Shown here: piece by piece, positions 7,441-50,201 of the stretch
How positions within the stretch are numbered: the first letter of the stretch is position 1
How the letters are laid out: each line of letters opens with the position of its first letter
Origin: Blastococcus sp. TBT05-19
GTDB lineage: Bacteria; Actinomycetota; Actinomycetes; Mycobacteriales; Geodermatophilaceae
Reading direction: 5' to 3'
NCBI RefSeq assembly: GCF_003319095.1
Contig: NZ_QOHI01000001.1
Span: forward strand, 62,001 to 126,000
DNA length: 64,000 nt
Notes under the pieces: generated by a model
Database searches by the model: none
What the model saw: only the letters and a program-made list of their open reading frames with translations
What the model was told of the DNA's origin: nothing
Translations under genes and position numbers: made by a program

Positions 7441-10197
7441 GTGCCCCGCCTGTCGTCCCGTCCCGCAGCCCGCGACCCCCGCCCGCTGCGCGTGCTGCTG
7501 CGCCGCCCCCTGGTCGTGGGGATGGCGGCGCTCATCACCGTCGCGGTGACGACGTTCGGCCTGGCCATCGCCGTGGTCACCGTGCTGGGCGGTCGCGTCG
7601 ACCGGGCCAACGACATGATCGGTGCCCTGCAGGACGGGCACATCGCGATGATCAACCAGGAGACGTCGCTGCGCGGCTTCCTGGTGACCCGCGAGGCGCG
7701 CTTCCTCGAGCCCTACCGCAAGGGCGCCGCCGACCTCGCCGAGGCCGACGCGGTGCTGAGCCGGCTCATCGCCGGCGACCCGGAGCTCGAGGAGACGTTC
7801 GCCGCGCTGGAGGCGGCCGAGAACCGGTTCATCGACGAGTGGCTCCAGCCGGTGCTGGCCGAGCAGCCCGCCCTGGGCGACGTCGCCGCGCTGAGCGAGC
7901 TGCTCCGCCGGGACAAGGCGCTGTTCGACCGCTACCGCAGTCTCGAGGGCGAGATGAGCAGTCTGCTGGAGGAGCGCCGAGAGCGCGCCTACGACCAGCA
8001 GTACCTCGTGCTCCTCGGTGGGGCGTTCGGCGGCCTCGTGCTGACCGGTGTCGTGGCGTTCGCCGTCCGCCGGGCCAACCGCCGGCTGGCCGCGGAGATC
8101 CTGCCGCCGACCCAGCAGGTGCGCGAGACCCTGGCCGCGCTGTCCGCCGGCGACGTCGGTGCCCGGGCCACCGAGGCCGGCCCGGCCGAGCTGCGCGACA
8201 TCGCCGGCGACGTCAACGCCCTCGGCGAGGCGCTGCACGAGCGCGACGAGAAGGTCGCCGCCCGCGAGACCGAGCTGGTGGCCGCCCGCGACGAGGCCGA
8301 GCGCGCCGGGCAGGCCAAGACCGCCTTCCTCGCGACGATGAGCCACGAGATCAGGACGCCGCTCAACGCCGTCCTGGGCCTGACCGACCTGCTGCTGACC
8401 ACCGAGCTCACCGACGAGCAGCGCAGCCACCTGGACACCGTCTCCCGCAGCGGCGACAGCCTGCTGAGCCTGATCAACGACATCCTCGACTTCTCCAAGA
8501 TCGAGGCCGGCGAGCTCGACCTCGAGCGCGCGCCGTTCCAGCTCGACGACGTCGTCTACGACGTCGCCCAGCTGCTGGCCCCCCAGGCGGCCGGCAAGGG
8601 TCTGGACCTGCTGGTCGACATCGACGCCGAGCACCGCTGGGCCCTGATGGGCGATGGCTCCCGGCTCCGCCAGGTGCTGACCAACCTCGTCGGCAACGCG
8701 CTCAAGTTCACCGCCGTCGGCCAGGTCTTCGTCCAGGTCACCGGGCGCCTCGTGGACGGGCGCATGCACTGCACGCTGGCGGTCAGCGACACCGGCATCG
8801 GCATCTCGCAGGAGCAGCGCCGCCGGCTGTTCCGCTCCTTCAGCCAGGGCGACGCCTCGATCACGCGTTCCTACGGCGGCACCGGGCTGGGCCTGGCGAT
8901 CAGCCAGCGGATCGCGGCCGCCATGGGCGGGGACATCGAGGTCACCAGCGAGGCGGGCCTCGGCTCGACGTTCACCGTGCGCGTCGTGCTGGACCAGGCG
9001 CCGCTGGACGACGACGACCGCGGCCTGGCGGGGGCCCTCGCCGGGCGCCGGCTGCTGGTCGTGGACGACAACGAGACCAACCTGCGCATCCTGGAGCACC
9101 AGCTCAGCCGGGCCGGGGCGACCTGCGTGCTGGCCGCCGACGGCCCCGCGGCCCTGGTCGCGGCCGCGGACGGCGGGTTCGACGCCTGCCTCACCGACCT
9201 GCACATGCCGGGCATGGACGGCGAGGAGGTGGCGCGCCGGCTGCGCGAGCTGCCGGGCACCGCCGACGTCCCCCTCGTCCTGCTGAGCAGCTCGACCAGC
9301 CTGGCCGACGCCACCGCCGGCACCTTCGCCGCCCGGCTGCACAAGCCGGTGCGCCCGGAGCGGCTCGTGCAGACGCTGCGCTCGGTCCTGCAGCCCTCGG
9401 CCAAGGCGTCCGCGCCGCGCGCCGTCCCCGGGGCGGGCCCCGCCGGCACCGGGTTGCGCGTGCTGGTGGCCGAGGACCACGAGGTCAACGCCCACCTGAT
9501 CAAGCTCTACCTGCGCCAGCTCGGCCACGAGTGCGTGCACGTGCCCAACGGCCACGCCGCCGTCGAGGCCGTCCGGCAGGACCGCTACGACGTCGTGCTG
9601 ATGGACGCGCAGATGCCGGTCATGGGCGGGGTGGAGGCCACCACCGCCATCCGCGCCCTGGACATCGAGCAGCCGCGCATCTTCGCCGTCACCGCCAGCG
9701 TGCTGACCAGCGACCGCACCGCGTTCCTGGACGCCGGCGCCGACGAGTTCCTCACCAAGCCCGTCCGGCTGAACACGCTCGACACCGCCCTGTCCCGGGT
9801 GGTCGGGGGGCTCCCCGTGCCGCCGGCCCCCGCGGGAGAGGAGGCCCCCGCCACCGCGCCGCTGGACCCGGAGACCGTCGAGGAGCTGCGCGACCTGGGC
9901 GAGGACGCCTTCGCCCACCTCTACCGGCAGTACGTCGAGGGCCTGGAGACGACGGTCGCGGCGCTGCTGGCCGCCGACATCTCCGTGGACGTCGAGGACG
10001 AGAGCAGCCTGCCCAGGCTCGCGCACCGCCTCAAGGGCAGCAGCGCGGCCATGGGTGCCCTGCGGCTGGCCGACGTCTGCCGCCGTCTCGAGGACGCCGT
10101 GGAGCCCTCCGCGGACCGGGACGACGTGCTGTCGGCCCTGCGCGAGGAGAGCCGGTTGGTGCGCGCCGCCGTGGACAGCCTGCTCGACGCTCCCTGA
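7441..10197 (+). CDS. Hybrid sensor histidine kinase with CHASE3, HAMP, two receivers and Hpt
   Basis: A 918-aa membrane kinase of BarA-like layout. Order: membrane helix (about 25-50), CHASE3-type sensor (50-185; [14 protein letters not shown] is typical), second helix (188-208), HAMP (210-265), HisKA with SHEIRTPLN and phospho-His302, HATPase ([23 protein letters not shown]), receiver 1 (acceptor Asp586 in TDLHMPG), receiver 2 (acceptor Asp722 in LMDAQMP) and a C-terminal Hpt with His862 in AHRLKGSS. All catalytic motifs look intact, so a complete His-Asp-His relay is encoded in one protein. The partner is probably the divergent single-domain regulator at 6909. GTG start; no strong ribosome site is visible. 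Confidence 0.92.
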
Positions 10198-10227
10198 CGA
10201 GCCGGCGGGTGCCGGCGGGCGGCTCCG

Positions 10228-10233
10228 TACGAT
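10228..10233 (+). promoter_or_regulatory. Leaderless-type -10 box for serS
   Basis: TACGAT seven bases before GTG 10241. Transcription would begin at or next to the start codon, explaining the absent Shine-Dalgarno. Confidence 0.55.
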
Positions 10234-10240
10234 CGACGGC

Positions 10241-11536
10241 GTGATCGACCTCCGGCTCCTGCGCGAGAACCCCGACCTCGTCCGTGCCAGCCAGCGGGCC
10301 CGGGGAGCCGACGAGTCCCTGGTCGACTCCCTCCTCGCCGCCGACACCGCCCGCCGGGAGGCGGTCCGGCGGGCCGACGACCTGCGCGCCGAGCAGAAGA
10401 ACGCCTCGCAGGCGGTCAAGAAGGCCACCCCGGAGGAGCGGCCCGCCGTCCTCGAGCGGGCCAAGGCGCTGGCCGCCGAGGTCAAGGACGCCGAGGAGGC
10501 GCAGCGCGCCGCCGACGCCGCCCTGCGCGCCGCTCACACCAAGATCCCGAACGTCGTCGCCGACGAGGTGCCCCCGGGCGGTGAGGACGACGCCGTCACC
10601 ATCCGCACCGTCGGCGAGGTGCCCACCTACGACTTCGAGGTGCGCGACCACATCGAGATCGGCGAGCTGCTCGGTGCCATCGACATGGAGCGCGGCGCCA
10701 AGGTGTCGGGCTCGCGCTTCTACTTCCTCACCGGCCCGGGTGCGCTGCTGGAGTTCGCGCTCGCCCAGCTCGCCATCAGCCGCGCCGTGGCCGCCGGCTT
10801 CACCCCGGTCATCGCACCGGCGCTGGTCCGCCCCGAGGCCATGGAGGGCACCGGCTTCCTCGGTGAGCACGACGAGGAGGTGTACCGGATCGAGCGCGAC
10901 GACCTGTACCTCGTCGGCACCTCGGAGGTCGCGCTGGCCGGCATGCACTCCGGCGAGGTGCTGGACCTCTCGGCGGGGCCCAAGCGCTACGCCGGCTGGT
11001 CCTCCTGCTTCCGCCGCGAGGCGGGCTCCTACGGCAAGGACACCCGCGGCATCATCCGCGTGCACTGGTTCGACAAGGTCGAGATGTTCAGCTTCGCCCG
11101 TCCCCAGGACACCGAGGCCGAGCACCTGCGCCTGCTGGCGTGGGAGGAGGAGTTCCTCGCCGCCCTCGAGCTCCCTTACCGCGTCGTCGACATCGCCGCC
11201 GGCGACCTCGGCACCAGCGCCACCCGCAAGTACGACATCGAGGCCTGGTTCCCGACGCAGGGCACCTACCGCGAGCTCACCTCGACCTCGGACTGCACGA
11301 CCTTCCAGGCCCGCCGGCTCAACATCCGGTACCGCGACGAGGACGGGAAGACGCAGACGGCGGCCACGCTGAACGGCACGCTCTGCGCGATCGCCCGCAC
11401 CATCGCCTGCCTGCTCGAGGTCCACCAGCGCGCCGACGGCTCGGTGCACGTGCCGGTGGCCCTGCGCCCGTGGCTGGGCGGCGTCGAGGCCCTCACCCCC
11501 GGCATGACGCTGGCGGCGCCGGTGCCCCCCGCATGA
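10241..11536 (+). CDS. serS: Seryl-tRNA synthetase
   Basis: A 431-aa class II synthetase that charges tRNA-Ser with serine. The N-terminal coiled-coil arm (about residues 25-105, rich in [17 protein letters not shown]) and the catalytic domain are present. Motif 2 appears as [28 protein letters not shown] split over about 255-285 and motif 3 as [17 protein letters not shown]. Length is normal. The GTG start at 10241 gives the standard [15 protein letters not shown] beginning. The stop overlaps the following HAD gene by four bases (ATGA 11533-11536), so the two are co-translated. A tRNA-Ser gene is elsewhere in the window (47438) but is not linked. Confidence 0.97.
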
Positions 11537-12444
11537 GCCAGGAGCGGCCGCGCGCGCTCAAGGCCTACGGCGTCCTGCCCGATGCCGACCGGGTGATCGA
11601 ACTCGGGACCCTCGGCGGCTGGCGGCCCAAGCTCGTCGCCACCGACCTCGACGGCACGCTGCTGGACTCCGCGGGCGAGGTCTCACCGCGCACGCGCACG
11701 GCGCTGGGCGCCTGCTGGGACGCCGGCATCCCGGTGGTCGGTGTGACCGGCCGGGGACCGCGGCTGCTGGACAGCGTCCGCGACGCCCTCGGTGGTCGCG
11801 GGATCGCCGCCCTCTCCCAGGGCGGCTTCGTCGTCGACCTCGAGCGCGACGAGGTGCTCCGCGCCGTCGCCCTCCCGCGCGAGCAGGCCGAGCGGGTGAT
11901 CCGGCAGATCGAGGAGGTCGCCGGCGACCTGGTCCTCGCCGTCGAGGACGCCGCCGAGCAGGGCGAGGCGCACGACGCCCGGCTGCGGGTCCAGCACGGC
12001 TTCGGGTGGCCCTATCCCGAGCCGTCCTCCGTGCTGCCGCGGAACGAGGTGCTGCCCCCGGGCCCGGTGCTCAAGGCGTTCCTGCGGTCGTCGTCGCTGG
12101 GCCAGGACGAGCTGCTCGCCCGGGCGCGGAGCGTCGTCGACCCCGCGGACGCCGAGGTCACGCACGCGGGGCTGGGCTTCATCGAGGTCCTGCCGCCCGG
12201 CGTCACCAAGGAGACCGGGCTGGCCGTGGCGCTGGAGCGGTACGGCGTCGGGCTCGGCGACGTCCTCGCGTTCGGGGACATGCCGAACGACCTGCCGATG
12301 CTCACCGCGGTGGCCCGGGCCGGTGGCCGGGCGATCGCCGTCGCCAACGCCCACCCCGACGTGCACGCCGTCGTCCAGGGCGTCACGAGCGGCCACGAGG
12401 CCGATGGCGTCGCCCGGTACCTGGAGGCGGTCCTCGATGTCTGA
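11533..12444 (+). CDS. HAD-superfamily (Cof-type) phosphatase
   Basis: A 303-aa Cof/IIB-type HAD hydrolase. Motif I DLDGTLLD holds the nucleophile Asp, motif II is GVTGR, motif III the Lys in [10 protein letters not shown], and motif [13 protein letters not shown] cap domain lies between about residues 110 and 225. Such enzymes dephosphorylate sugar phosphates or flavin precursors; the substrate is not predictable. There is an N-terminal extension of about 30 residues before motif I. Translated from an ATG overlapping the serS stop, and followed by a paralogous HAD gene 11 bases later, suggesting tandem duplication. Confidence 0.85.
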
Positions 12445-12455
12445 CCGGGTGCGCG

Positions 12456-13265
12456 ATGTCTGACTGGAGGCCCCGGCTCATCGCCAGCGACATGGACGGC
12501 ACGCTGCTGCGCTCCGACGAGTCGGTCGGCCCGGCCACCGTCGAGGAGCTGGAGCGCTGGCACGCCGACGGCGTCCCGCTGGTCCTGGCCACCGGCCGGC
12601 CCCCGCGCTGGATGCACGGCATCCGCGAGGTGGTGCGGCACGGCACCGCCGTCTGCTGCAACGGCGCGGTGCTCCTGGACCTCGGGCCGATGGAGATCGT
12701 CGACGAGGACCCGCTGGAGCCCGACGCGCTGGAGGCGATCACCGCCGGGCTGCGCCGGCACGAGCCGACGATGTGGTTCGCCGTCGAGTACGGCTGGGAG
12801 TTCCGCCACGAGCCGGTGTACCGGCCGCGCTGGGACGTCGACGCGCCCGGTGTCGCCGCGGCGGGCCTGGACGAGCTGACCGCCGTGCCGGTGGCCAAGC
12901 TGCTCGCCCGTCACGAGTCGATGAGCCGGGACGCCTTCGTCCGGCTGGTCGAGGACGTCGTCGGGGACCGCGGGACGGTCACGAACTCCTCCACCGACGC
13001 GCTGGCCGAGATCTCCGCGCCCGGGGTCACCAAGGCCAGCGGCCTGGCCAAGGTCGCCGCCCGGCACGGGCTCGGGCCGGAGGACGTCGTCGTCTTCGGG
13101 GACATGCCGAACGACATCGCCGCCTTCGAGTGGGTCCGCGCCGGCGGGGGCCGTGCGGTGGCCATGGCGCACGCGCACCCCGACCTGCTCGCCGTCGCCA
13201 CGGACGTCACCGACGGCAACGACGAGGACGGCGTCGCGGCCTTCCTGAGCACACTCCGGAACTGA
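12456..13265 (+). CDS. HAD-superfamily (Cof-type) phosphatase, tandem paralogue
   Basis: A 269-aa Cof-type HAD hydrolase. Motif I is [12 protein letters not shown], motif [12 protein letters not shown], motif [16 protein letters not shown], and motif [14 protein letters not shown]. The cap domain (about 85-185) differs clearly from that of its upstream neighbour, so substrates probably differ. The start lies in the second copy of an 11-base direct repeat (12435-12445 and 12454-12464); the first copy covers the stop of the upstream gene. This looks like a small duplication that separated formerly overlapping genes. Co-transcribed with serS and the first HAD gene. Confidence 0.85.
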
Positions 13266-37866: not shown

Positions 37867-38760
37867 ATGGGGGACCCGGACGGGTATCCGGACCAGGACC
37901 GGACGGAGCACCGGGAACGCGTACCCGAGCTGGTCGGGGCGTCGCGGCCGGCGGTGGCCCCGCGCCCCACGGGCGCGCACCGCGCGCCCGACGAGCCCGA
38001 CGAGGAGCCGGCCGCGGCGCCGCCCGCCCGCGAGCCGTTGTGGCGCGGCGTCGTCCGCGGGACCGGCGAGCTGCTGATCACCGCCGGCCTCGTGCTGCTG
38101 CTGTTCGTCGTCTACGAGCTGTACGTCACCGACTACCTCACCGGTCAGCGGCAGGACGAGCTCACCCAGGAGCTGCGCGAGGAGTGGGCGCAGCCGCCGG
38201 CCCCCGGTGAGGCCCCGCAGCTGCGCCAGGTCGAGATCGGCGACGCGTTCGGCGTGCTGCGGATCCCCCGGCTCGGCGAGGACTACGCGCGGGTGATCCT
38301 CGAGGGGACCAGCGAGACCGAGCTGTCGCAGGGCCCCGGCCACTACGAGGGGACGGCGATGCCCGGCGAGCCCGGGAACGTGGCGCTGGCCGGCCACCGC
38401 GTCGGCAAGGGCTCGCCCTTCCTGGAGCTCGACGCGATGCAGCCCGGCGACCCGATCGTCGTGGAGACCGCCGACAGCTGGTTCGTCTACCGGGTGCTCG
38501 GCGACCCGGCCACCGGCGACCTGGACGCCGACCCCAGCGGCATCCCCGGGCTGCAGATCGTCCGGCCCACCGACATCGACGTCATCGCGCCGACCCCGAA
38601 CCAGGCGGCCTCCGCGCCGACCGGGTCCTACCTGACCCTGACCACCTGCCACCCGCGGTTCTCCGCCCGGGAGCGGCTGATCATCCACGCCCGGCTCGAG
38701 GGCACGGCGCTGGCCAAGGCCGAGCTGCCCGACGGCCCGCCGGCGCTGTTCGAGGGCTGA
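37867..38760 (+). CDS. Class E sortase
   Basis: A 297-aa membrane transpeptidase. A Pro/Glu-rich cytoplasmic N-terminus (1-57) is followed by one helix (about 66-88) and the sortase barrel. The catalytic triad is His177 (LAGHRVGKGSPF), Cys261 (TLTTCHPRFS) and Arg268 or Arg270 (SARERLI). The LAGHR and TTCHP motifs place it in class E, the housekeeping type in high-GC Gram-positives, which recognises LAxTG sorting signals. No LAxTG protein is encoded in the window. ATG start after GGGGGAGCGGC. It is followed 12 bases later by a 51-aa membrane protein gene that often accompanies such sortases. Confidence 0.93.
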   Translation: MGDPDGYPDQDRTEHRERVPELVGASRPAVAPRPTGAHRAPDEPDEEPAAAPPAREPLWRGVVRGTGELLITAGLVLLLFVVYELYVTDYLTGQRQDELTQELREEWAQPPAPGEAPQLRQVEIGDAFGVLRIPRLGEDYARVILEGTSETELSQGPGHYEGTAMPGEPGNVALAGHRVGKGSPFLELDAMQPGDPIVVETADSWFVYRVLGDPATGDLDADPSGIPGLQIVRPTDIDVIAPTPNQAASAPTGSYLTLTTCHPRFSARERLIIHARLEGTALAKAELPDGPPALFEG

Positions 38761-38771
38761 GAGGAGCACAC

Positions 38772-38927
38772 GTGTACGGCTGGATCTGGCGGCACCTGCC
38801 CGGGTCGACCGGGCTCAAGGCGCTGCAGGCGCTGGTGCTGGTCGCGGCGGTCTGCGCGCTGCTGCTCTTCGTCGTGTTCCCGTGGGTGGAGCCGCACCTG
38901 CCCTTCAACGACGTCACCGTCGACTGA
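38772..38927 (+). CDS. 51-aa single-helix membrane protein beside class E sortase
   Basis: A very short gene (GTG start, GAGGAG seven bases upstream). Residues 1-12 (VYGWIWRHLPGS) are amphipathic, residues about 16-37 form one membrane helix (ALQALVLVAAVCALLLFVVF), and the tail VEPHLPFNDVTVD is short and acidic. Proteins starting YGWIWRHLPG and ending near LPF.D occur next to sortases in Actinobacteria. Its role is unknown; a small sortase partner or regulator is a guess. The codon use matches the neighbours and the reading frame lacks any overlapping alternative, so I consider it real. Confidence 0.75.
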   Translation: MYGWIWRHLPGSTGLKALQALVLVAAVCALLLFVVFPWVEPHLPFNDVTVD

Positions 38928-40335: not shown

Positions 40336-41031
40336 ATGGCAGGGAAGTCCGTTGTGGCCGTCGGGGCCCACCCCGACGACATCGAGCTGGGGTGCGGCGC
40401 GACGCTGCTCGCGCACGCCGCCGCCGGTGACCGCGTCACCATGCTGGTGATGACCGGCGGGGAGAGCGGCCCCGGTACGGCCAACCGGCACCTCGAGCAG
40501 CGCTCCGCCGCCGCCGTGCTCGGCGCGGGCCTGCGCTGGGGCGGGCTGGTCGACTGCCGGATGACCGCCGACAGCGGCACGGTGCAGGTCATCGAGCAGG
40601 TCCTCGCCGAGACCTCGGCCGACCTGGTCTACGTGCACGCTCCCGAGGACAGCCACCAGGACCACCGGGCCGCCGCCGCGGCCACCCTCTCCGCGGCCCG
40701 CCGGCTCGCCCGCGTCCTGCACTACCAGAGCCCCTCCACCCTCACCTTCACCCCGACCGTGTTCGTCGACGTCACCGCCCACCTGTCGGGCAAGCTCGCG
40801 GCGCTGGCGGCCCACTCCTCGCAGGTCGAGAACTCGCCGATGGTCGAGCCCGACGCGGTGCAGGCCTCCGCCCGCCACTGGGGCGCCCAGGCCCGGATCG
40901 GCTACGCCGAGGCCTTCCAGCCCACCCGCATGGTCCTCGACCTCGCCCCGGCGGCTCCGGTCGCCGACCGCCGGCGCTCGTCCACCCGCATCGTCCCGGC
41001 GCCCCACCGCACGGCGGCTGCCGCGCGATGA
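40336..41031 (+). CDS. PIG-L (LmbE-like) deacetylase
   Basis: A 231-aa zinc deacetylase of the PIG-L/LmbE fold. The metal motif AHPDDIELGCG supplies His and Asp-Asp, and PEDSHQDHRAA the third His. These enzymes remove acetyl groups from GlcNAc-containing molecules in the cytoplasm, e.g. in GPI or mycothiol synthesis. The last ~25 residues are a basic, unstructured tail. It opens an operon and overlaps the glycosyltransferase start by four bases (ATGA 41028-41031). Next to a processive GT2 and a 2-epimerase, it probably acts on an N-acetyl sugar donor or lipid intermediate of a surface glycan (inference). Confidence 0.9.
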   Translation: MAGKSVVAVGAHPDDIELGCGATLLAHAAAGDRVTMLVMTGGESGPGTANRHLEQRSAAAVLGAGLRWGGLVDCRMTADSGTVQVIEQVLAETSADLVYVHAPEDSHQDHRAAAAATLSAARRLARVLHYQSPSTLTFTPTVFVDVTAHLSGKLAALAAHSSQVENSPMVEPDAVQASARHWGAQARIGYAEAFQPTRMVLDLAPAAPVADRRRSSTRIVPAPHRTAAAAR

Positions 41032-42458
41032 GCCCCGTCCCGGCGGTCGTCCCCGACGGCCGTGCCCCCGCTGCCCCGCTCGCCGGCTCCGTGCCGGCGA
41101 GCGGGTCGGCGCACGGTGCACGGCCCGACGGGCGACGGCTGGTGCTGGTCGGCTACGTCGTCGCGCTCGTCGCGGCGATCGTCGCCTTCGGGACCGACCC
41201 GGTGTTCGGCGTCATCGCCGGCGCCCTGAACGTCGTCTTCGCCGTCTTCTTCTTCCGGCACCTGGCGTTCGCCGTCGCGGCCGCGCGCTGGGCCGAGGCC
41301 GACCTGCTGGCCCCCGACGTGGACCTGGACGGGTACACGCCCGAGGTCGCGGTCTTCGTCGGCTGCAAGAACGAGGAACTCGTCGTCGACGGGATGATCA
41401 CCGCCCTCCTCGGGCTCGAGTACCCGCCGGACAAGCTGACCCTCGTCGTCGTCAACGACGGATCCGACGACGGCACCGGGGCGCGGCTGGACGCCCGGGC
41501 CGCCCTCGAGCCGCGGCTCCGCGTGCTGCACCGGGCCCCGAACTCCGGCGGCGGCAAGTCCGGCGCGCTCAACGACGCCCTGGCCACCGTCGACGCCGAG
41601 ATCGTCCTCGTCTTCGACGCCGACCACGAGCCCGACCCCAACGCGCTGCGCCGCCTGGTCCGGCACTTCCGCGACCCCTCGGTGGGCGCCGTCATGGGCC
41701 GCTGCGTGATCCGCAACGGCCAGGAGTCGACGATGGCCACCACGGTCTTCGTCGACTTCCTGTCCGGTTACCTGGTCAACGAGTACGGCCGGCAGGCGCT
41801 GTTCGAGCTGCCCGCCTACGGCGGCGCCAACTGCGCCGTCCGGATGACGACGCTGCGGGCGCTGGGCGGCTGGAACACCGAGACGGTCACCGAGGACACC
41901 GACCTCACGCTGCGGGTGCTGCTCTCCGGGCAGCGGGTCCGCTACGACGTCTCGGCGATCGACTACGAGGAGGCGGTGGTCACCGCCCAGCGCTTCTGGA
42001 CGCAGCGCTACCGCTGGGCCCGCGGCCACCAGAAGTGCTTCCGCGACTACACGTGGTCCATGCTCCGCTCGCCCCACCTCACGGTGGTGGAGAAGGCGGA
42101 GTCGCTGCTGTTCCTGCTCGGCTACCACGTGCCGGTGCTCAGCGGGATCGGCGTGCTGCTCACCGTCCTGCGGGCGTTCGGCGTCGGCGACGAGCCGATC
42201 ATCGGCCTGCTGCCGCTGTCGATGCTGCTGTTCGTCGGTCCGCTGGCCGAACTCACCGTCGGCCTGCTCGTGGGCCGGGTCGAGCGGCGGGCCGCCTGGT
42301 CGCTGCTGGGCTTCATCCCGGCGTTCGCGCTGTCCATCTGGATCACCACCCGCGCCTACCTCGACGGCATGCTCGGGCGGCAGTACACCTGGGTGAAGAC
42401 GACCCGGTCCGGCGGCACCTCCACGGTGGCGCCGTCCCCGGCGGGTGGGCAGGCATGA
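41028..42458 (+). CDS. Processive family 2 glycosyltransferase of the exosortase operon
   Basis: A 476-aa membrane GT2. Two helices (about 40-85) precede the GT-A domain with VVNDGSDDGT, the DxD in VFDADHEPD, the acid in TEDTDL, and the QxxRW motif QRYRWARGHQ. Four more helices (about 355-460) follow. This is the architecture of cellulose-, hyaluronan- and PNAG-type synthases. The product is unknown but, given the PIG-L deacetylase and UDP-GlcNAc 2-epimerase genes in the same operon, an amino-sugar polymer or lipid-linked glycan is likely. Overlaps both neighbours by four bases. The motif set matches the GT2 at 4391, though the two differ in overall sequence. Confidence 0.9.
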   Translation: MSPVPAVVPDGRAPAAPLAGSVPASGSAHGARPDGRRLVLVGYVVALVAAIVAFGTDPVFGVIAGALNVVFAVFFFRHLAFAVAAARWAEADLLAPDVDLDGYTPEVAVFVGCKNEELVVDGMITALLGLEYPPDKLTLVVVNDGSDDGTGARLDARAALEPRLRVLHRAPNSGGGKSGALNDALATVDAEIVLVFDADHEPDPNALRRLVRHFRDPSVGAVMGRCVIRNGQESTMATTVFVDFLSGYLVNEYGRQALFELPAYGGANCAVRMTTLRALGGWNTETVTEDTDLTLRVLLSGQRVRYDVSAIDYEEAVVTAQRFWTQRYRWARGHQKCFRDYTWSMLRSPHLTVVEKAESLLFLLGYHVPVLSGIGVLLTVLRAFGVGDEPIIGLLPLSMLLFVGPLAELTVGLLVGRVERRAAWSLLGFIPAFALSIWITTRAYLDGMLGRQYTWVKTTRSGGTSTVAPSPAGGQA

Positions 42459-43744
42459 GCGCCTCCTCGTCGCTGCCCCGCTCGATCCGCGGCCGCGTCG
42501 TCGTGCGCGGTGGCGCCCGGCGCCGCGTGACCGTGCTGGTCGAGCTGTGCATCACCGTCGCCATCTGCCTGCTGGGCTACACCTTCGGCGCGACCTGGTT
42601 CAAGGAGCACGAGGCCCGCTGGACCGTCGCGATCCTGCACTTCTTCGGCGAGGACCGGGTCTCCGACGTCTTCCCGGGCCACATCCTGATGTTCCGGGAC
42701 GGCGAGGTGCTCGACGGCGAGGTGACGACGTCCTGCTCGTCGATCCTCACCGTCATCGGCCTCACCGCGCTGACCTTCGCGGTGCTGCGCCGGCGGCGCT
42801 GGCACGCGGTGCTCGGGCTGGCCATCGGCCTGGTCTCCGTGGTGGTCGCCAACGACCTCCGGCTGGTCGCCTCGGCGCTGGCCGGCGTGCACTGGGGCCA
42901 GCCGGCCATGGTGCTGTTCCACGACTGGGTCGGCACGGTGTGGACTCTCGCCGCCACCCTGGGCGGCTTCCTCGTGATGGTCCACTTCACGCTGCCGATC
43001 GCCGAGCGCGCGGAGCAGGACGTCGCCGGGCGGCACACCGCCGGGCGGCCGACGACCTGGGCGCGCCCGGGCCTGGGCTACCGCGTCGAGGACGTCGAGC
43101 CGTCGACCGGCGGCCGGCGGGCCTCGCTGACCGGCTACCTGCACCGCTACGTGCTGCCCCGGTGGGTGTCCCGCCGCCTGGCCGCCCGCCGCGAGGCCGG
43201 CCGGATCGACTACCGCATCGGGCACCAGCCGCCGCAGCAGCGGATCGAGACCGTGCGCGCGCTGGTGGCCGACGGCCTCGGCGCGCACATCGCGTCGCTG
43301 CTGGCGATCGCCACGTACGAGGAGGACCTCGACGTGCTGGACGCCCTCGCCGACGCGATCGCCGCGCGCCAGTGGGAACCGGTGACGAACGACCGCATCG
43401 CCGCCGTGCGGCTGTGGGCCCGTGGCTGGCTGTCCGCCCGCCGGACCGGTGCCCCGACCCCGACCCCGATCCCGGTCCCGAAGCCGGCCCTGGTCCCGGT
43501 GCCGGCCCCCGTTCCGGTCCCTGCTCCGGTCCCGGTGCCGATCGACGACGTGTTCGACGACCTGATCGACGACGAGTTCGACGACGTGATCGACGTGGTC
43601 GACGACGACATCGTCTTCCGGGCCGCCGGCCCCCCGCCGCCGGTGCCGGCCCCGGCGCGCTCTCCGGAGCCCGCCCCGCCGGCCCGGCTCCCGCACCCCC
43701 GAAGCTTCGCCCGACCCCCGCTCCACCCGGAGGACCCCCGATGA
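42455..43744 (+). CDS. Exosortase/archaeosortase-like membrane protein with Pro-rich and acidic tail
   Basis: A 429-aa protein. The first ~190 residues hold four helices with three invariant-type residues of the exosortase/archaeosortase family: Cys94 (TTSCSSILT), Arg136 (ANDLRLV, with Asn133) and His156 (LFHDWVG). These form the proposed thiol transpeptidase triad that cuts C-terminal sorting signals. The unit is compact, with fewer helices than classic EpsH. The rest (190-429) is cytoplasmic or extracytoplasmic: a helical segment, then Pro/Val repeats (about 333-365), an Asp-rich FDDLIDDEFDDVID block (366-388) and another Pro-rich stretch. Overlaps its neighbours by ATGA on both sides. Its likely substrate is the secreted protein at 46819. 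Confidence 0.78.
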   Translation: MSASSSLPRSIRGRVVVRGGARRRVTVLVELCITVAICLLGYTFGATWFKEHEARWTVAILHFFGEDRVSDVFPGHILMFRDGEVLDGEVTTSCSSILTVIGLTALTFAVLRRRRWHAVLGLAIGLVSVVVANDLRLVASALAGVHWGQPAMVLFHDWVGTVWTLAATLGGFLVMVHFTLPIAERAEQDVAGRHTAGRPTTWARPGLGYRVEDVEPSTGGRRASLTGYLHRYVLPRWVSRRLAARREAGRIDYRIGHQPPQQRIETVRALVADGLGAHIASLLAIATYEEDLDVLDALADAIAARQWEPVTNDRIAAVRLWARGWLSARRTGAPTPTPIPVPKPALVPVPAPVPVPAPVPVPIDDVFDDLIDDEFDDVIDVVDDDIVFRAAGPPPPVPAPARSPEPAPPARLPHPRSFARPPLHPEDPR

Positions 43745-44859
43745 CCCGCCCGCCGCTCCCCTCGCCGCGCAACCCGCTCGACGTGCAGCTGTCCTCGCCC
43801 GACCTGTGGGCCGAGGTCCCCGCTCCCGCTCCCGCCCCGGCTCCTCTGCCGGCCCGGGCGACGGTGCTGGTCACCGGAGCCGGTGGGCCGGCCGGGATCT
43901 CCGTCGTCCGCCGGCTGGTGGCCCTCGGGCACCGGGTCGTGGCCGCCGACGCCGATCCGACCGCCGCGGGCGGCGCGCTCGCCTCGGTGGCCGTGACCCT
44001 GCCGCCGGGCGACCACCCCCGCTTCCTCGACGCGCTGCTCGGTGCCGTCGCGGTCTACGGCGTGGACGCGCTCATCGGCACCGTCGCCGAGGAGCTGCCC
44101 ACGCTCACCGCCGGCGTCGACCGGCTGACCGCGGCCGGGGTGGCCACCTGGCTGCCCGACCTCGCCGCGGTCGACCTGTGCTGCGACAAGGGCGCCTTCG
44201 CCGAGCGCATGGACCAGGCCGGGGTGCCCTCCCCGCCGACGGCGACGACCGCCGAGGGCGCCGGCTCCCTGCCCGGGCCGTGGATCGTCAAGCCCAACTC
44301 GGGGCGCGGCAGCCGCGGGCTGCAGCTGCTCGACGACCGCGACGCCGTCGTCGCCGCCCTGTCGGCCGATCCGGGGCTCATCGCCCAGACGCGGCTGAGC
44401 GGGCGCGAGTTCACCGCCGACGCGCTCGTGGACCGCGACGGCCGCCTGCTCACCGTCGTCCCCCGCTGGCGGGACGAGACCAAGGCCGGCATCTCGGTCA
44501 AGGGCACCACCTTCGCCTCCCCGGCCGTCACCGACCTGGTGTCCGACGCGCTGGCCGCGGTGGGCCTGACCGGCCCGGCCAACGTGCAGGGCTTCGTCGC
44601 CGACGACGGGACCGCCACGGTCGTGGAGATCAACCCGCGGTTCTCCGGTGGCCTGCCGCTCACGCTGGCGGCCGGCGCCGACGTCGTCTCGGCCTACCTG
44701 TCCGGCATCCGCGACCCGCAGGCGGAGCTGCCGTTCCTCTGGTTCACCCCGGGTGTGCGGATGAGCCGCTACTTCGCCGAGACGTACACGGCCGCCGACG
44801 GAACGCCCGTCGCCGACCCGTGCGCGCCCGCCGCGGTCCAGGTCGAGGTGCCGGCATGA
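43741..44859 (+). CDS. ATP-grasp ligase of the exosortase operon
   Basis: A 372-aa ATP-grasp enzyme related to carbamoyl-phosphate synthase-like and PylC-like ligases. The N-terminal Rossmann-like part begins at about residue 40 (ATVLVTGAGGPAGISVV), after a disordered Pro/Ala linker. The ATP-grasp core shows WIVKPNSGRGSRGLQL, and the metal-binding VVEINPRFSGG. Such enzymes join a carboxylate to an amine or thiol, or act on sugar and peptide substrates in polysaccharide clusters. The exact reaction is unknown. It is bound in the operon by ATGA overlaps at both ends (43741-43744 and 44856-44859). Confidence 0.85.
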   Translation: MTRPPLPSPRNPLDVQLSSPDLWAEVPAPAPAPAPLPARATVLVTGAGGPAGISVVRRLVALGHRVVAADADPTAAGGALASVAVTLPPGDHPRFLDALLGAVAVYGVDALIGTVAEELPTLTAGVDRLTAAGVATWLPDLAAVDLCCDKGAFAERMDQAGVPSPPTATTAEGAGSLPGPWIVKPNSGRGSRGLQLLDDRDAVVAALSADPGLIAQTRLSGREFTADALVDRDGRLLTVVPRWRDETKAGISVKGTTFASPAVTDLVSDALAAVGLTGPANVQGFVADDGTATVVEINPRFSGGLPLTLAAGADVVSAYLSGIRDPQAELPFLWFTPGVRMSRYFAETYTAADGTPVADPCAPAAVQVEVPA

Positions 44860-46004
44860 CCCGCCGCCGGCACGTGCTGGTGCCCTTCGGCACCCGCCCC
44901 GAGGTCGTGAAGCTCGCCCCGGTCGTCCATGCCCTGACCGCCGCCGGTCACGAGGTGGCCGTCGTCGACACCGGGCAGCACACCGACCCCGCCCTGAGCT
45001 CGGAGCTCCAGGACGCCCTCGGGCTCGCCCCCACCCTGCGGTTCTCGCTGCCGACCGAGCAGCCCGCCCGCACCGGCGCCCTGCACGCCGACGCGGCCGC
45101 CGCGGTGGCGAAGTTCTCCCCCGACCTCGTGCTCGCCCTCGGCGACACCAACACCGTGCCCGCCTACGCGCTGGCCGCCCGCGGGGCGGGGGTGCCGTTC
45201 GGTCACGTCGAGGCCGGGCTGCGCAGCCTCAACCAGCGCAGCATCGAGGAGGTCAACCGCAAGGTGGCCGCCGCCTCGGCGCAGGTGCACTTCGCGCCCA
45301 CCGCCCGCGCCGCGGCCTTCCTCGCCGCGGAGGGCGTTCCCCAGGAACGCATCTTCGTCGTCGGCAACCCGGTGATCGACACGCTCGTGGCGCGCGGCGT
45401 CGCGCCCCGTCCGGTCGCCGACCGCGCCGGCGTCCTGGTCACCGCGCACCGGCCCACCAACGTCGACGACCCGGCCCGCCTGGCCCGGCTGGTCACCGTC
45501 GTCCGCGGCCTGGCCGACACGATCGGCCCGGTCACCTTCCCGGTGCACCCGCGCACCGCCCGGCGGCTGGAGGAGACCGGGCTGGCCGCCGACCTGGCGC
45601 ACCCGGGCGTCACGCTGACGGCGCCGCTGGACTACGACACGCTGCTGGCGACGCTCGCCTCCTCACGGCTGGCGGTCACCGACTCCGGTGGCATCCAGGA
45701 GGAGGCCGCCTACCTCGGTGTCCCCGTGGTGGTGCTGCGGGCCTCGACCCCCCGCTGGGAGGGCGTGGAGGCCGGGACGACGACGCTGGCCGGCCTGGCC
45801 GACGACGACGCCGCGGCCCGCGTGATGGCCGCCGCGACGGCGCACAGCTCCGCCGCCGGGCAGGAGCGCGCCGCCACGCTGCCGTGCCCCTACGGCGACG
45901 GCACGACCGGCGTGCGCATCGCCCAGATCCTGGCCGACGAGCGCACCGACGCCCTGCTCGCGCTCACCGAGCCGGACTTCACCGACGGGCACCTGCCGTG
46001 GTGA
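44856..46004 (+). CDS. UDP-GlcNAc 2-epimerase-like enzyme (non-hydrolysing, WecB-like)
   Basis: A 382-aa GT-B-fold enzyme. The start FGTRPEVVKLAPVVHAL, the acid in LALGDTNT, VEAGLRS, NPVIDT, HRPTNVDD and SGGIQEEAAYLGVPV with RWEGVEAGT all match the UDP-N-acetylglucosamine 2-epimerase family (WecB). It would interconvert UDP-GlcNAc and UDP-ManNAc. The start ATG overlaps the ATP-grasp stop, and the GTG of the HAD gene overlaps its own stop. It supplies the donor sugar and thus marks the operon as glycan-building. The N-terminus lacks the conserved Gly loop changes seen in hydrolysing forms, so the simple epimerase is the best call. Confidence 0.9.
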   Translation: MTRRRHVLVPFGTRPEVVKLAPVVHALTAAGHEVAVVDTGQHTDPALSSELQDALGLAPTLRFSLPTEQPARTGALHADAAAAVAKFSPDLVLALGDTNTVPAYALAARGAGVPFGHVEAGLRSLNQRSIEEVNRKVAAASAQVHFAPTARAAAFLAAEGVPQERIFVVGNPVIDTLVARGVAPRPVADRAGVLVTAHRPTNVDDPARLARLVTVVRGLADTIGPVTFPVHPRTARRLEETGLAADLAHPGVTLTAPLDYDTLLATLASSRLAVTDSGGIQEEAAYLGVPVVVLRASTPRWEGVEAGTTTLAGLADDDAAARVMAAATAHSSAAGQERAATLPCPYGDGTTGVRIAQILADERTDALLALTEPDFTDGHLPW

Positions 46005-46729
46005 CCCCGGGCTGGGACGGCCCTCCGCCGCTGGGCGTCGTCGTGGACCTCGACGACACGCTCTACCCGCAGGCCGACTACCTCGCCGGGGCCGCGGTCT
46101 CGGTGGGCCGGGCCGCCGGCGACCTGGGCCTGGACGGGGACGCCGTCACGAGGGCGCTGGCCGCCTGCCTGGCCACCGGCTCCGACACCGGCGGCACCAT
46201 CGACCGGGCGCTGCTCGCCGTCGGCGTGCCCGAGGCGGCGCTGCCCGGCCTCGTGCCGCCGCTGGTCGCCGCGTTCACCGGGCACACCCCCGACCGGCTG
46301 GACCCGTACCCGGGTGCCGAGGACGCGCTTCGGTCGCTGCTCGCCCACGTGCCGGTCGGCTGCATCACCGACGGCCACCCCACCATCCAGGCGGCCAAGC
46401 TCGCCGCGACCGGTCTCTCGCCGCTGCTGCCCGCCGTCGTCATCACCGACGACCTCGGCGGCCGCGCCATGCGCAAGCCGCACCCGGCCGGGCTGACCGT
46501 GCTGGCGGAGCGGATGGACGTGCCCGCCGACCGGCTGCTCGTCATCGGCGACCGGCCCGGCAAGGACGTCGCCGTCGCCGCCGCCGTCGGTGCCCGCGCC
46601 ATCCGGATCCGGCAGGGGGAGTACGCCTCCGCGCCGGACACCCCGCCGGCCTGGGCCGTCGTCGACTCGTTCCCCGAGGCGGCCGAGCTGGCGCTGCGCG
46701 TGCTCGCGCCCGCTCACTCCTTCGGGTGA
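46001..46729 (+). CDS. HAD-superfamily phosphatase of the exosortase operon
   Basis: A 242-aa subfamily I HAD hydrolase. Motif I is VDLDDTLYP, motif II GCITDGHP, motif III the Lys in RKPHPAGL, and motif IV VIGDRPGKDVAVA. The alpha-helical cap between about 25 and 100 indicates type C1, as in sugar-phosphate and sialic-acid 9-phosphatases. Its substrate is probably a phosphorylated sugar precursor of the same glycan. GTG 46001 overlaps the epimerase stop by four bases (GTGA) and it is the last gene of the operon; a 7-bp hairpin follows at 46743. Confidence 0.85.
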   Translation: MTPGWDGPPPLGVVVDLDDTLYPQADYLAGAAVSVGRAAGDLGLDGDAVTRALAACLATGSDTGGTIDRALLAVGVPEAALPGLVPPLVAAFTGHTPDRLDPYPGAEDALRSLLAHVPVGCITDGHPTIQAAKLAATGLSPLLPAVVITDDLGGRAMRKPHPAGLTVLAERMDVPADRLLVIGDRPGKDVAVAAAVGARAIRIRQGEYASAPDTPPAWAVVDSFPEAAELALRVLAPAHSFG

Positions 46730-46742
46730 GGTCGGCCGCCGA

Positions 46743-46800
46743 GGGCTCCAGTCAGGAGCCCAGGGAGCCGATGGCGGTCTCATGGGTGGGTCAGCCACCC
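46743..46800 (+). promoter_or_regulatory. Tandem small hairpins between the HAD and secreted-substrate genes
   Basis: GGGCTCC-AGTCA-GGAGCCC (46743-46761) and GGGTGG-GTCAG-CCACCC (46784-46800). The first may weaken or end transcription after the operon; the second sits 19 bases before ATG 46819, in the leader of the secreted protein gene. Confidence 0.45.
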
Positions 46801-46818
46801 CCGATCCGAGGTGTGTGC

Positions 46819-47337
46819 ATGAGGACCAAGACGACCGGCCGCTCCCGAATGCTCGGCGTCCTCGTGGCCGTCTGCGTCGCCGTCGGGCTGTCTGCCGTCC
46901 CCGGCGTGGCCGCGGCGGCGCCTGCCCAGGTCGCCCCGTTCGTCGACTGCTACCGGGAGAACACCGACGGGACCTACACCGTCGTCTTCGGCTACTCGAA
47001 CACGTACAAGGCGTCGACGACGATCCGGTACGGGGTGGACAACCGGATCTCCCCTACGGCCTACCAGGGCGCGCAGCCGCAGTCGTTCTCGGTCGGCACG
47101 CACCGGGGCGTGTTCTCGCTGACCGTGAAGGCGGCGGACGTGAGCACGTTCCGGTGGGAGCTGGACCGGACCACGCTGACGTACTGGTCGGCGTCCTCGG
47201 CGCCGCAGTGCGCGCCGTCGACCCCGCTGCCCCTGCTGGGCAACGGGACCGGGCTGGCGATCGCGCTCGTGGCCGGAGGAGTGTTCGGCGTGCTCTTCGT
47301 GCGCCGCATGATCCGCCGGGCCGCCGTCCGCGCCTGA
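46819..47337 (+). CDS. Secreted protein with exosortase-type C-terminal sorting signal
   Basis: A 172-aa exported protein. A Sec signal peptide (RMLGVLVAVCVAVGLSAVPGVAAAA) ends near residue 31. The mature beta-rich part has two cysteines (VDCYREN and PQCAPS) likely in a disulfide. The C-terminus is tripartite: Pro/Gly segment STPLPLLGNGTG, a helix (about LAIALVAGGVFGVLFV), and a basic tail RRMIRRAAVRA. That is the layout of exosortase, archaeosortase or sortase sorting signals, without an LPxTG. It lies directly after the operon containing the exosortase-like enzyme, so I infer it is a cargo. ATG start after GAGGTG; a GTG six bases upstream is possible. Confidence 0.75.
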   Translation: MRTKTTGRSRMLGVLVAVCVAVGLSAVPGVAAAAPAQVAPFVDCYRENTDGTYTVVFGYSNTYKASTTIRYGVDNRISPTAYQGAQPQSFSVGTHRGVFSLTVKAADVSTFRWELDRTTLTYWSASSAPQCAPSTPLPLLGNGTGLAIALVAGGVFGVLFVRRMIRRAAVRA

Positions 47338-47437: not shown

Positions 47438-47525
47438 GGAGGGCTCGCATAGCGGCCTAGTGCGGCGGTCTTGAAAACCGCTAAGAGGTGATCCCTCTTC
47501 GTGGGTTCGAATCCCACGCCCTCCG
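47438..47525 (+). tRNA. tRNA-Ser (anticodon UGA)
   Basis: 88 bases. Acceptor stem GGAGGGC with GCCCTCC, anticodon stem GCGGT/ACCGC around the loop CTTGAAA with anticodon TGA at its centre, a long variable arm (TAAGAGGTGATCCCTCTTC) and a T arm GTGGGTTCGAATCCCAC. The long variable arm confirms serine. No CCA is encoded. Confidence 0.95.
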
Positions 47526-47604
47526 CTCCTCGTCCGGGGAGGAGACCGTCCGTCGACGACCCCTCCGCGGGAGCGACGGCGCGCGCGGCCGGGACCGAGC
47601 TGCC

Positions 47605-48706: not shown

Positions 48707-49555
48707 GTGCGGACCATCTGTGCCGTCCTCGTCGCGCTGCTCGTGACGCTGACGACGGCGTTGCTCTCCCCGGCGCAGGCCGCGGAGACCGGGCTGCTGC
48801 GCCTGGCTCACCTGTCGCCGGACACCCCCGCGGTCGACGTGTACGTCGACTCGGTCGCCGATCCGGGGAACGGGACCGCGCTGCTGACCGTGCCGGGCGT
48901 CAACTACGGCACGATCTCCGACTACCAGGCCGTGCCGCCGGGCGTCTACGCGATCAGCATGCGCGAGGCGGGAGCCGCTCCGGACAGCCCGCCGGCGCTG
49001 TCGACGACGGTCGAGATCGCCGCCGGCAGCGCGCGCACGGTCGCCGGCGTCGGACCCGCGGCGGACCTCGGCCTGGAGGTCCTGCAGGACGACCTCACCC
49101 CGCCGGCCGGCGGACAGGCGCGCGTGCGGGTCGTCGCCGCCGCGGCCACGGCACCGAACCTGGACGCCGTGGCCGGCGACGCGTCACTGGCCACCGACCT
49201 GGCTTTCGCCCGGACCGGCGAGTACGCCGCCCTCCCCGCCGGCACCGACCGCTTGACGCTCACCGCGCAGGGCACGTCCACGGAGGTGCCCATCGAGGTG
49301 GCCGCCGGCTCGGTGTACAGCCTGTTCGTCCTCGACCGTCCCGGAGGCGGGCTCACCGTCCGCACGGTGCTCGACGCCGCGGGCGCGGGTGCGGTTCCGG
49401 TCGGCGGCGTGGAGGCCGGCGCCGGCGGGGCGGCCGGCGGCTCGTCGCCGTCCGGGCTCCCGGTCGCCGCCGCGCTCGGCGCCGGTCTCGTCGGCCTCGT
49501 CGCCGTCGGAGTCGGCCGGCGGTCGACGGCCGGCCGGCACAGCCCGTCCGCCTGA
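48707..49555 (+). CDS. DUF4397-domain surface protein with C-terminal anchor
   Basis: A 282-aa exported protein. A Sec signal peptide (residues 1-25, ending SPAQAAE) precedes two DUF4397 beta units (LLRLAHLSPDTPAVDVYVD and RVRVVAAAATAPNLDAV, each followed by PPGVYAISM or LPAGTDRLTL type strands). The C-terminus has a Gly-rich VPVGGVEAGAGGAAGG linker, a helix LPVAAALGAGLVGLVAVGV and a basic end RRSTAGRH: a sorting-signal layout. A class F sortase gene follows four bases later, and DUF4397 proteins are regularly paired with it, so it is the likely substrate. GTG start with GGGGGAA seven bases upstream. Confidence 0.88.
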   Translation: MRTICAVLVALLVTLTTALLSPAQAAETGLLRLAHLSPDTPAVDVYVDSVADPGNGTALLTVPGVNYGTISDYQAVPPGVYAISMREAGAAPDSPPALSTTVEIAAGSARTVAGVGPAADLGLEVLQDDLTPPAGGQARVRVVAAAATAPNLDAVAGDASLATDLAFARTGEYAALPAGTDRLTLTAQGTSTEVPIEVAAGSVYSLFVLDRPGGGLTVRTVLDAAGAGAVPVGGVEAGAGGAAGGSSPSGLPVAAALGAGLVGLVAVGVGRRSTAGRHSPSA

Positions 49556-49559
49556 TCCG

Positions 49560-50201
49560 GTGCGCCACCGCGCCGGGCGCCGCCGGGCGCCGAGGGGACA
49601 CGGTCCGCCGAGCCGGCTGCTCGGCGGGCGGGTCGTGCTCGCCGGCGTCGTGGGAGCTGTGCTCGTCCTCGGCCCCGCGGCCCCTCCTCCTCCGTCCCCC
49701 GCCGGCCCGGCGGCCGACCAGGGCTCCTCGGTCGTCGCCGAGGCCGGCGCCCTGCGGGCGACCCCGGAACCGGTGCGGGTGCGTGTGCCGCGGATCGACG
49801 TCGACAGCACGCTGGACCGGCTGGGGCTGCTGGCCGACGGGTCGTTGGAGACGCCGGCCGACTTCGGGCAGGCCGGCTGGTACGGCGGCGGGCCGGCACC
49901 GGGGGACGTCGGCCCGGCGGTGCTGGCCGGACACGTGGACTCCACCGCGGGCCCGGCCGTCTTCTGGCGGCTGCGCGAGGTCGTCGCCGGCGACGAGGTG
50001 CTGGTCGACCGCGCGGACGGGTCGACGGCCCGGTTCACGGTGACCCGGGTCGCGCGCCACCCCAAGGACGCGTTCCCCACGGACGAGGTCTACGGCCCGA
50101 CACCCGACGCGCAACTGCGGCTGATCACCTGCGGTGGTGAGTTCGACAGCTCGCGGCGCAGCTACGAGGACAACGTCGTCGTCTTCGCGCGCTCGGCGTG
50201 A
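49560..50201 (+). CDS. Class F sortase
   Basis: A 213-aa sortase. A basic N-terminus and helix (about 22-40) are followed by the catalytic barrel: His125 in LAGHVDSTAGP, Cys191 in LITCGGEFD, and Arg199/Arg200 in SRRSYEDNVVVFA. The TCGG and SYxDN motifs identify class F, an actinobacterial type often next to DUF4397 proteins. It would join the DUF4397 protein, or others with a similar Gly-rich signal, to the cell wall. GTG start four bases after the substrate stop; the two are one operon. Confidence 0.9.
   Translation: MRHRAGRRRAPRGHGPPSRLLGGRVVLAGVVGAVLVLGPAAPPPPSPAGPAADQGSSVVAEAGALRATPEPVRVRVPRIDVDSTLDRLGLLADGSLETPADFGQAGWYGGGPAPGDVGPAVLAGHVDSTAGPAVFWRLREVVAGDEVLVDRADGSTARFTVTRVARHPKDAFPTDEVYGPTPDAQLRLITCGGEFDSSRRSYEDNVVVFARSA

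Follow-up and report, generated by a model that had tools for sequence, protein, structure and literature searches.

The 64-kb window analysed here, a stretch of the 3.9-Mb genome of Blastococcus sp. TBT05-19 (Geodermatophilaceae), carries on its plus strand a run of six genes (40336–46729) centred on a predicted exosortase, with the gene of a predicted secreted protein, referred to below as the cargo, close downstream. The run begins with a PIG-L family deacetylase, BshB1-like and a predicted amino-sugar N-deacetylase (40336–41031), and continues with a membrane glycosyltransferase of family GT2 and of processive, PgaC/NodC-like type (41028–42458), the exosortase (42455–43744), an ATP-grasp enzyme that is PRK12767-like and a probable ligase (43741–44859), a non-hydrolysing UDP-GlcNAc 2-epimerase, WecB (44856–46004), and a HAD-family hydrolase, probably a phosphatase (46001–46729). 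Neighbours overlap at all five junctions by four shared bases, ATGA at 41028, 42455, 43741 and 44856 and GTGA at 46001. The cargo gene (46819–47337) lies outside this chain, its likeliest start being an ATG at 46819, 89 bp past the HAD stop, so that the six candidate enzymes, the exosortase included, and the cargo are packed into about 7 kb. A first-pass annotation had described six genes joined by five consecutive 4-base overlaps, with a secreted protein bearing a C-terminal signal next to them; the open reading frame coordinates and the shared bases confirm this description, and the six gene identities that it gave were borne out by family searches. The G+C content is 73–76% throughout the window, and base composition therefore gives no sign of a foreign origin of the operon.

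The window proteins were scored against Pfam and NCBIfam models with curated cut-offs. The epimerase, identified as WecB by TIGR00236 (246.8 bits for a cut-off of 210.15), is the one operon gene of the six to pass the cut-off of an NCBIfam equivalog model. The deacetylase matches PF02585 (79.2 bits, cut-off 28.2) and scores 95.2 bits with TIGR04001, under the cut-off of 182.5; its motifs [AG]xHPDD and HxxH are present in 37/37 homologues. The glycosyltransferase matches PF13641 (86.2 bits, cut-off 27), and its score with TIGR03937 is 127.8 bits, under the PgaC equivalog cut-off of 422.3, so that its product is unassigned. The motifs D[AG]D, [TE]ED and QxxRW are nevertheless found in 34/34 sequences and hydrophobic segments lie at both ends of the protein, as predicted for a processive GT2 of PgaC type. 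The ATP-grasp protein matches PF15632 (60.5 bits, cut-off 29.1) and PF02655 (54.7 bits, cut-off 23.2); a single PDB relative was found at E≤0.001 (2pn1, E 2.8e-22), and the family-model and PDB searches yielded no characterised close relative. The HAD protein matches PF00702 (59.8 bits, cut-off 26.4), with a DDT motif in 33/33 sequences.

The exosortase reaches only the family-wide models, PF09721 (29.1 bits, cut-off 25.7) and TIGR04178 (35.8 bits, cut-off 23). The best subfamily model is XrtS, with 44.2 bits for a cut-off of 145, XrtR gives 23.6 for 150, and XrtP is not among the matches; these scores place the protein outside the curated subfamilies. Its closest named relatives are from Blastococcus atacamensis, B. 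haudaquaticus and uncultured Blastococcus. The core of the protein (residues 1–180, 42455–42994) holds Cys94, Arg136 and His156, the triad of the original exosortase proposal as it is outlined there (PMC1569441), near the ends of hydrophobic segments; the four hydrophobic regions span residues about 25–49, 90–111, 119–137 and 158–183. The first-pass annotation had set beforehand that homologues lacking these residues would refute its view; the triad is in fact invariant in 29 family members and also in 33 sequences that include two from outside the family (loci L074 and L075; loci and genomes of our searches carry L and G numbers). Scores above the family cut-offs, the ordered Cys/Arg/His, the predicted membrane helices that bear them and the cognate tailed proteins described below together assign the protein to the exosortase/archaeosortase family. 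The last hydrophobic segment is followed by about 145 conserved amino acids (residues 181–329, 42995–43441), predicted to be cytoplasmic and without any Pfam match in the window protein, in which the block RAEQD...GRHTA...RPGLGYR is nearly invariant and the structural model places helices at residues 225–327. We refer to it as the HEAT-like domain, for reasons given below. The remainder is a variable Pro/Asp-rich tail (43442–43744) that runs into the ATP-grasp gene.

The cargo is predicted to consist of a hydrophobic N-terminal signal, a beta-rich domain and a C-terminal sorting signal (47203–47334) made of C..STPLPLLGNG, a membrane helix and an Arg-rich end. Its AlphaFold model (pLDDT 80) shows six strands and, at the C-terminus, a helix, and hydrophobic segments lie at both ends of the sequence. 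No Pfam or NCBIfam family, CoaP included, matched the window cargo, and in the PDB a sequence search gave two matches only (E 0.28 and 0.78) and a fold search a best E of 0.076. When 35 cargo proteins were compared with NCBIfam up to E 0.1, six weak families appeared (best E 0.0048), none matching more than two proteins; the cargo of L074 has a faint similarity to a choice-of-anchor S protein (17 bits for a cut-off of 70). In 48/50 cargo copies of the family the tail reads C-x(4-6)-[LM]-P-x-x-[GA]-N-G and continues into a hydrophobic helix and arginines, and the mean column identity is 50% in the tail alignment versus 27% over the whole cargo. The motif that precedes the helix is thus [LM]Pxx[GA]NG instead of PEP, and it takes the LPxTG form in just 1 of the 48 copies that bear it (LPATGNG). 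The two entries lacking the motif both come from a single disrupted copy in L058, beside which an intact one stands, and this suggests turnover of extra cargo copies. One copy (L048:14703–15647) has an F5/8 type C (discoidin) domain (70 bits) at its N-terminus, before the usual domain and tail. The genomes with cargo have one to three copies, all of a single family. A search of ten genomes with a tail-only profile, in which 150 candidates per genome were scored and to which depth absences hold, gave eight full-tail matches, all at known cargo positions in carriers. In the five non-carrier genomes among them nothing scored better than E 0.001 and nearly all matches covered the membrane helix only; one of these matches (G020:C3, E 0.06) starts at profile position 8, its sequence being uninspected. 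Because no other protein with the full signal turned up in these ten genomes, the cargo looks dedicated to this system.

The distribution of the two genes in Geodermatophilaceae points in the same direction. We searched 96 genomes of the family for the exosortase and, with a profile at E 0.001, for the cargo; the cargo search scored 35 candidates per genome, and absences hold to that depth. The exosortase is present in 32 of the 96 genomes, at E 3.4e-69 or better, and the cargo in 31, all within those 32. Five further genomes that passed E 0.001 in the exosortase search were left out of the carrier count: their matches were confined to query residues 253–414, the helical and Pro-rich region. 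The first-pass annotation had named, also beforehand, the lack of a co-occurring cargo family sharing the C-terminal signal as grounds for rejection; a cargo was found in 31/32 carriers and 0/64 non-carriers (Fisher p 2e-24, relatedness ignored). The carrier without a cargo match, G080, is an 84%-complete assembly of about 240 contigs in which the cluster runs off a contig end. Carriers are spread over seven genera (g1 2/19, g2 3/3, g4 2/9, g5 17/20, g7 4/17, g10 1/1, g12 3/16) and there is none in the other five (11 genomes), these tallies having been counted by hand; five genera mix carriers and non-carriers, and in each of them the cargo tracks the exosortase, G080 excepted. Orthologues of the ATP-grasp enzyme (at least 66% identity) are likewise confined to the 32 carriers, as two pieces in G058 and as a fragment in G080. 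We therefore hold, with high confidence, that the cargo and the exosortase form a pair, as far as comparative genomics can establish one.

Gene order is conserved as well. Relatives' loci were annotated with a crude codon-usage script, and outside the window gene starts and short overlaps are therefore approximate. All seven genes are present in 27 of the 31 relatives' loci as fetched. Two of the remaining loci, L035 and L050, end at contig ends and their missing genes lie on other contigs of the same genomes (L079 and L080), L065 also stops at a contig end, and L057 (G004) lacks a neighbouring cargo gene, one being found at another site of the same genome (L081). The glycosyltransferase gene adjoins that of the exosortase in 31/31 loci, and exosortase and ATP-grasp are separate neighbours in 28/31, with exactly 4 shared bases in 27; the other three are two exosortase–ATP-grasp fusions and one locus that reaches a contig end after the exosortase. 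That these two neighbourhoods are kept across 31 loci argues that the arrangement is more than chance. The cargo directly precedes the PIG-L gene in 25/31 loci, overlapping it by 8 bases in 12, and PIG-L comes first in the window, L035, L036, L037 and L065. Eight loci contain two cargo genes, and nine cargo copies unlinked to the cluster, fetched from eight carrier genomes, each have the same tail. The called genes show that the association of exosortase, GT2, ATP-grasp, epimerase, HAD, PIG-L and cargo is conserved.

Wider searches were made at the level of the class (296 genomes) and of the order (298 genomes), the latter draw including family genomes already seen. They revealed the six enzymes in four genomes outside the family, G128 (L074), G135 (L075), G447 (L134) and G439 (L135); of two weak class-level matches, one locus (L077) had no genes called and the other (L078) no operon gene called. 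The exosortases of these four loci are also under the subfamily cut-offs wherever a match appeared. In L074, L075 and L134 the exosortase has only 177–178 residues and the ATP-grasp protein 481–501, the latter beginning with a stretch that is hydrophobic by eye, then a domain that matches the extension of the window exosortase. Residues 251–325 of the extension match inside the ATP-grasp genes of L074 and L075 (E 6.8e-8 and 8.1e-7), and Pfam HEAT_2 recognises this part in L075 (35.1 bits, cut-off 27.7) and falls under its cut-off in L074 (23.6 bits); the L134 domain was compared by eye only. The HEAT-like domain is thus carried by the exosortase in Geodermatophilaceae and by the ATP-grasp enzyme in three other families. 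In addition, the two enzymes are fused into one protein of 693–727 residues in L042, L051 and, in another family, L135. L042 and L051 are not sisters in a tree rooted by choice on L074/L075, without a support value for the deepest branch: L042 groups with L044 and L047 (support 0.94). The fusions and the shared domain show that, at the level of the encoded polypeptides, exosortase and ATP-grasp enzyme are physically coupled. The tail co-varies with the position of the domain, being LPxxGNG when it is on the exosortase and PV[SP][VL][VS]G[SN] when it is on the ATP-grasp protein. The L135 cargo ends in LPAEGNG, and the genomes of L074, L075 and L134 have TPVSVVGS, KPVSLVGS, KPVPVSGN and KPVPVVGS. 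The cargo lies beside the operon in L074, L134 and L135, and in G135 two copies are on other contigs.

These observations can be accommodated in a model, to which we give a probability of about one half, in which the locus would be a self-contained protein-anchoring module whose exosortase attaches proteins of a single cargo family to an amino-sugar glycan bearing a free amine. As expected of the exosortase family, the cargo would be exported and held in the membrane by its C-terminal helix, and Cys94 would cut it near LPxxGNG, giving a thioester. These steps are likely, and that the window exosortase cleaves the cargo tail is, on family grounds, very probable. The steps that would follow are less certain. 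The epimerase would supply UDP-ManNAc alongside UDP-GlcNAc, the GT2 enzyme would build a membrane-bound amino-sugar glycan, PIG-L would bare an amine on this glycan or on its precursor, and the ATP-grasp enzyme would join a carboxylic acid, perhaps an amino acid, to an amine, in the way that Cys is attached to GlcN in mycothiol and bacillithiol; the resulting amine would resolve the thioester, leaving the cargo linked to the glycan. The HEAT-like domain may tether the ATP-grasp enzyme to the inner face of the exosortase, and the coupling of the two proteins fits synthesis of an amine acceptor on site. The parts of this model do not have the same strength. That an amino-sugar glycan is the acceptor is a tentative proposal, to which we give somewhat less than an even chance; that the acceptor is built on site, as a deacetylated and ATP-grasp-modified amino-sugar glycan made by an enzyme tethered or fused to the exosortase, with the cargo passed onto its free amine, is more speculative, and an aminoacylated form of the acceptor is doubtful.

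An amine acceptor is favoured because several precedents involve an amine and because the enzyme types of the operon could make one. In the type IX secretion system, according to the portion of the report used here, an amide bond links cargo to a 2-N-seryl or 2-N-glycyl amino sugar, whose synthesis involves a putative deacetylase and a proposed amino-acid transferase, VimE being a carbohydrate esterase of family 4 and VimA belonging to the N-acetyltransferases; the sugar pathway of Tannerella forsythia includes a predicted epimerase (PMC7468200). The logic that this Wbp/Vim system may share with the window is a deacetylated, aminoacylated amino sugar bonded to the C-terminus of a sorted protein; it is an analogy and not a homology, as the window has PIG-L and ATP-grasp proteins and not the VimE and VimA families. 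The type IX sortase, moreover, is PorU, not an exosortase. A deacetylase followed by an amino-acid (Cys) ligase acting on an amino sugar is, in the sections consulted of the source, established for mycothiol and proposed for bacillithiol (PMC4360819). The deacetylases of these pathways (MshB–MshC, BshB–BshC) act on a GlcNAc conjugate and are related to the window PIG-L, but the product there is a soluble small molecule and no exosortase takes part. Neither ligase is known to be an ATP-grasp enzyme. For the archaeosortase ArtA, the amine of a lipid ethanolamine has been proposed as the nucleophile, and artA lies beside pssA and pssD in Methanosarcina, as stated in the part of that report drawn on here (PMC7157517). 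There too a sorting gene adjoins enzymes for a proposed amine acceptor, which is however lipid ethanolamine, and no glycan enzymes are named in that part of the report.

Several observations weigh against the proposed module. The ATP-grasp protein scores under the curated subfamily cut-offs (165.9 bits with NF009405 for a cut-off of 390), so that its substrate is not assignable, and the exosortase model is of moderate confidence (pLDDT 78, pTM 0.53), with no solved relative in the PDB by profile or fold (best fold E 1.0). Furthermore, a second, paralogous ATP-grasp set, 38–41% identical, is present in 13 genomes of the window's genus, 12 of them without the exosortase (G058 has both). Nine of these 13 loci were fetched: PIG-L and ATP-grasp are found in 9/9 and GT2 in 8/9 at the threshold used, and neither exosortase nor cargo homologues were labelled in any of the nine. 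In the four loci listed gene by gene, PIG-L adjoins ATP-grasp and a PHP-type protein follows. Because this set occurs without an exosortase, PIG-L, ATP-grasp and GT2 need not make an exosortase acceptor. Conversely, seven distant exosortase loci (L136–L141, from the order, and L076) have a GT2 gene in 7/7 and a WecB-like epimerase in 6/7, and PIG-L, ATP-grasp and HAD are absent among the genes listed around the exosortase in all seven, so that an amine made in this way would not be needed by all such exosortases. One of the paralogous loci, L142 (7437–11707; L143–L150 are similar), encodes a response-regulator/PIG-L fusion, an ATP-grasp protein, a PHP-type protein and a GT2 enzyme; a secreted protein resembling camelysin (PF12389) is encoded nearby, as is a membrane protein without Pfam match, which we presume may be a SipW-like peptidase. 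One of the distant loci, L137, is a true XrtP locus (XrtP 267.2 bits, cut-off 200; XrtP-associated glycosyltransferase 721.1, cut-off 520; CoaP 64.8, cut-off 35), where the exosortase cargo, CoaP, lies together with a WecB-like epimerase and a small, sortase-type LAXTG protein of 59 residues (8346–12790).

The same two groups of loci would be explained if the exosortase transferred the cargo to water or to a common amine, of a lipid or of the cell wall, the neighbouring glycan only binding or surrounding the protein, as in a matrix operon. The enzyme set without exosortase and the camelysin-like protein near one of its copies, the XrtP and other distant loci lacking PIG-L, ATP-grasp and HAD, and the cargo copy with a discoidin domain, a fold that often binds sugars, are all in keeping with such an operon. 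We nevertheless consider it unlikely, as the ATP-grasp/exosortase fusion in three genomes and the domain that the two proteins share are tighter than independent processes would predict. The position of the exosortase gene between GT2 and ATP-grasp, and these same fusions, could also mean that the exosortase homologue assists in polymerising or exporting a glycan and that the cargo is a matrix protein or an accessory of the glycan synthase. This we find improbable, given that the tripartite tail is like known sorting signals and better conserved than the rest of the cargo, that unlinked cargo copies are confined to exosortase carriers and that the catalytic triad is invariant. Finally, genes for class E and class F sortases flank the operon, both within 3 kb, and LPxxG resembles LPXTG, one tail reading LPATGNG, so that the cargo might be an ordinary class E/F sortase substrate beside a plain exopolysaccharide operon. 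However, a class E sortase is present in 57/64 genomes without exosortase, none of which has the cargo, and G030, G062 and G078 carry cargo and exosortase without a class E sortase (E≤1e-10); we reject the cargo as a sortase substrate on this co-occurrence with class E enzymes, class F sortases having been left out of the survey, and regard this reading as very improbable. The first-pass proposal, that the cargo is joined to an amino-sugar glycan through the exosortase, therefore holds for its first part, since the pairing of cargo and exosortase is well supported by co-occurrence, tail and triad, and is only plausible for the acceptor.

The surroundings of the operon contain other sorting genes. 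The class E sortase (37867–38760; 259.6 bits, cut-off 160) is followed by a hydrophobic open reading frame of 51 residues, the stretch ending at 38927. On the other side, a secreted DUF4397 protein whose tail is weakly of GVDTG type (18.1 bits, cut-off 29) is followed by the class F sortase (192.6 bits, cut-off 166), the two occupying 48707–50201 with the sortase frame ending at 50201; they likely form, from their sequences, a second sorting pair near the exosortase operon. A tRNA-Ser (TGA) gene lies at 47438–47526, about 100 bp 3' of the cargo gene; integration often takes place at tRNA genes.

The closest known kind of locus is that of XrtP and CoaP. The exosortase P system (XrtP NF012139, glycosyltransferase NF053846, CoaP NF053845) likewise places, as in L137, a short exosortase beside a GT2 enzyme, a WecB-like epimerase and a dedicated tailed secreted protein. 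The window locus differs from it in an exosortase that stays under the XrtP, XrtR and XrtS cut-offs, a cargo outside the CoaP models, and the addition of PIG-L, ATP-grasp, HAD and the HEAT-like domain. With the PEP-CTERM/EpsH systems of Gram-negatives it shares the Cys/Arg/His membrane protein, the tripartite C-terminal signal and the link to exopolysaccharide genes, features set out in the part of the 2006 proposal used here (PMC1569441); it differs from them in its actinobacterial host, in LPxxGNG instead of PEP, and in having one cargo family instead of many diverse proteins. The first-pass annotation had called such an actinobacterial set little described. This was half right: the window gene set was not found in the literature searched, but an actinobacterial exosortase with its own GT2 enzyme and dedicated cargo tail is already known in NCBIfam, in the form of XrtP. 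The window subfamily, its tail signal, the deacetylase/ATP-grasp/HAD addition and the HEAT-like domain were not found in the open-licence literature searched. LPxxGNG thus adds a tail signal, no NCBIfam model having recognised the cargo proteins convincingly.

The matter of interest is what exosortases attach proteins to. The attachment target was left open in the 2006 family proposal, as far as the part of it cited here goes (PMC1569441), and a 2025 study still writes, in the corresponding part, of linking to polysaccharide "or some other molecule" (PMC12188702). The present locus gathers an exosortase, its cargo and candidate enzymes in a family with named isolates, and the exosortase–ATP-grasp fusions single out the ATP-grasp protein as the specific enzyme of interest. 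If the acceptor is indeed built on site, this would be, as far as we know, the first case in bacteria of a short operon that encodes both an exosortase and the pathway to its acceptor; it would represent a route to aminoacyl-sugar anchoring independent of that of the type IX system, with artA/pssA/pssD as an archaeal counterpart.

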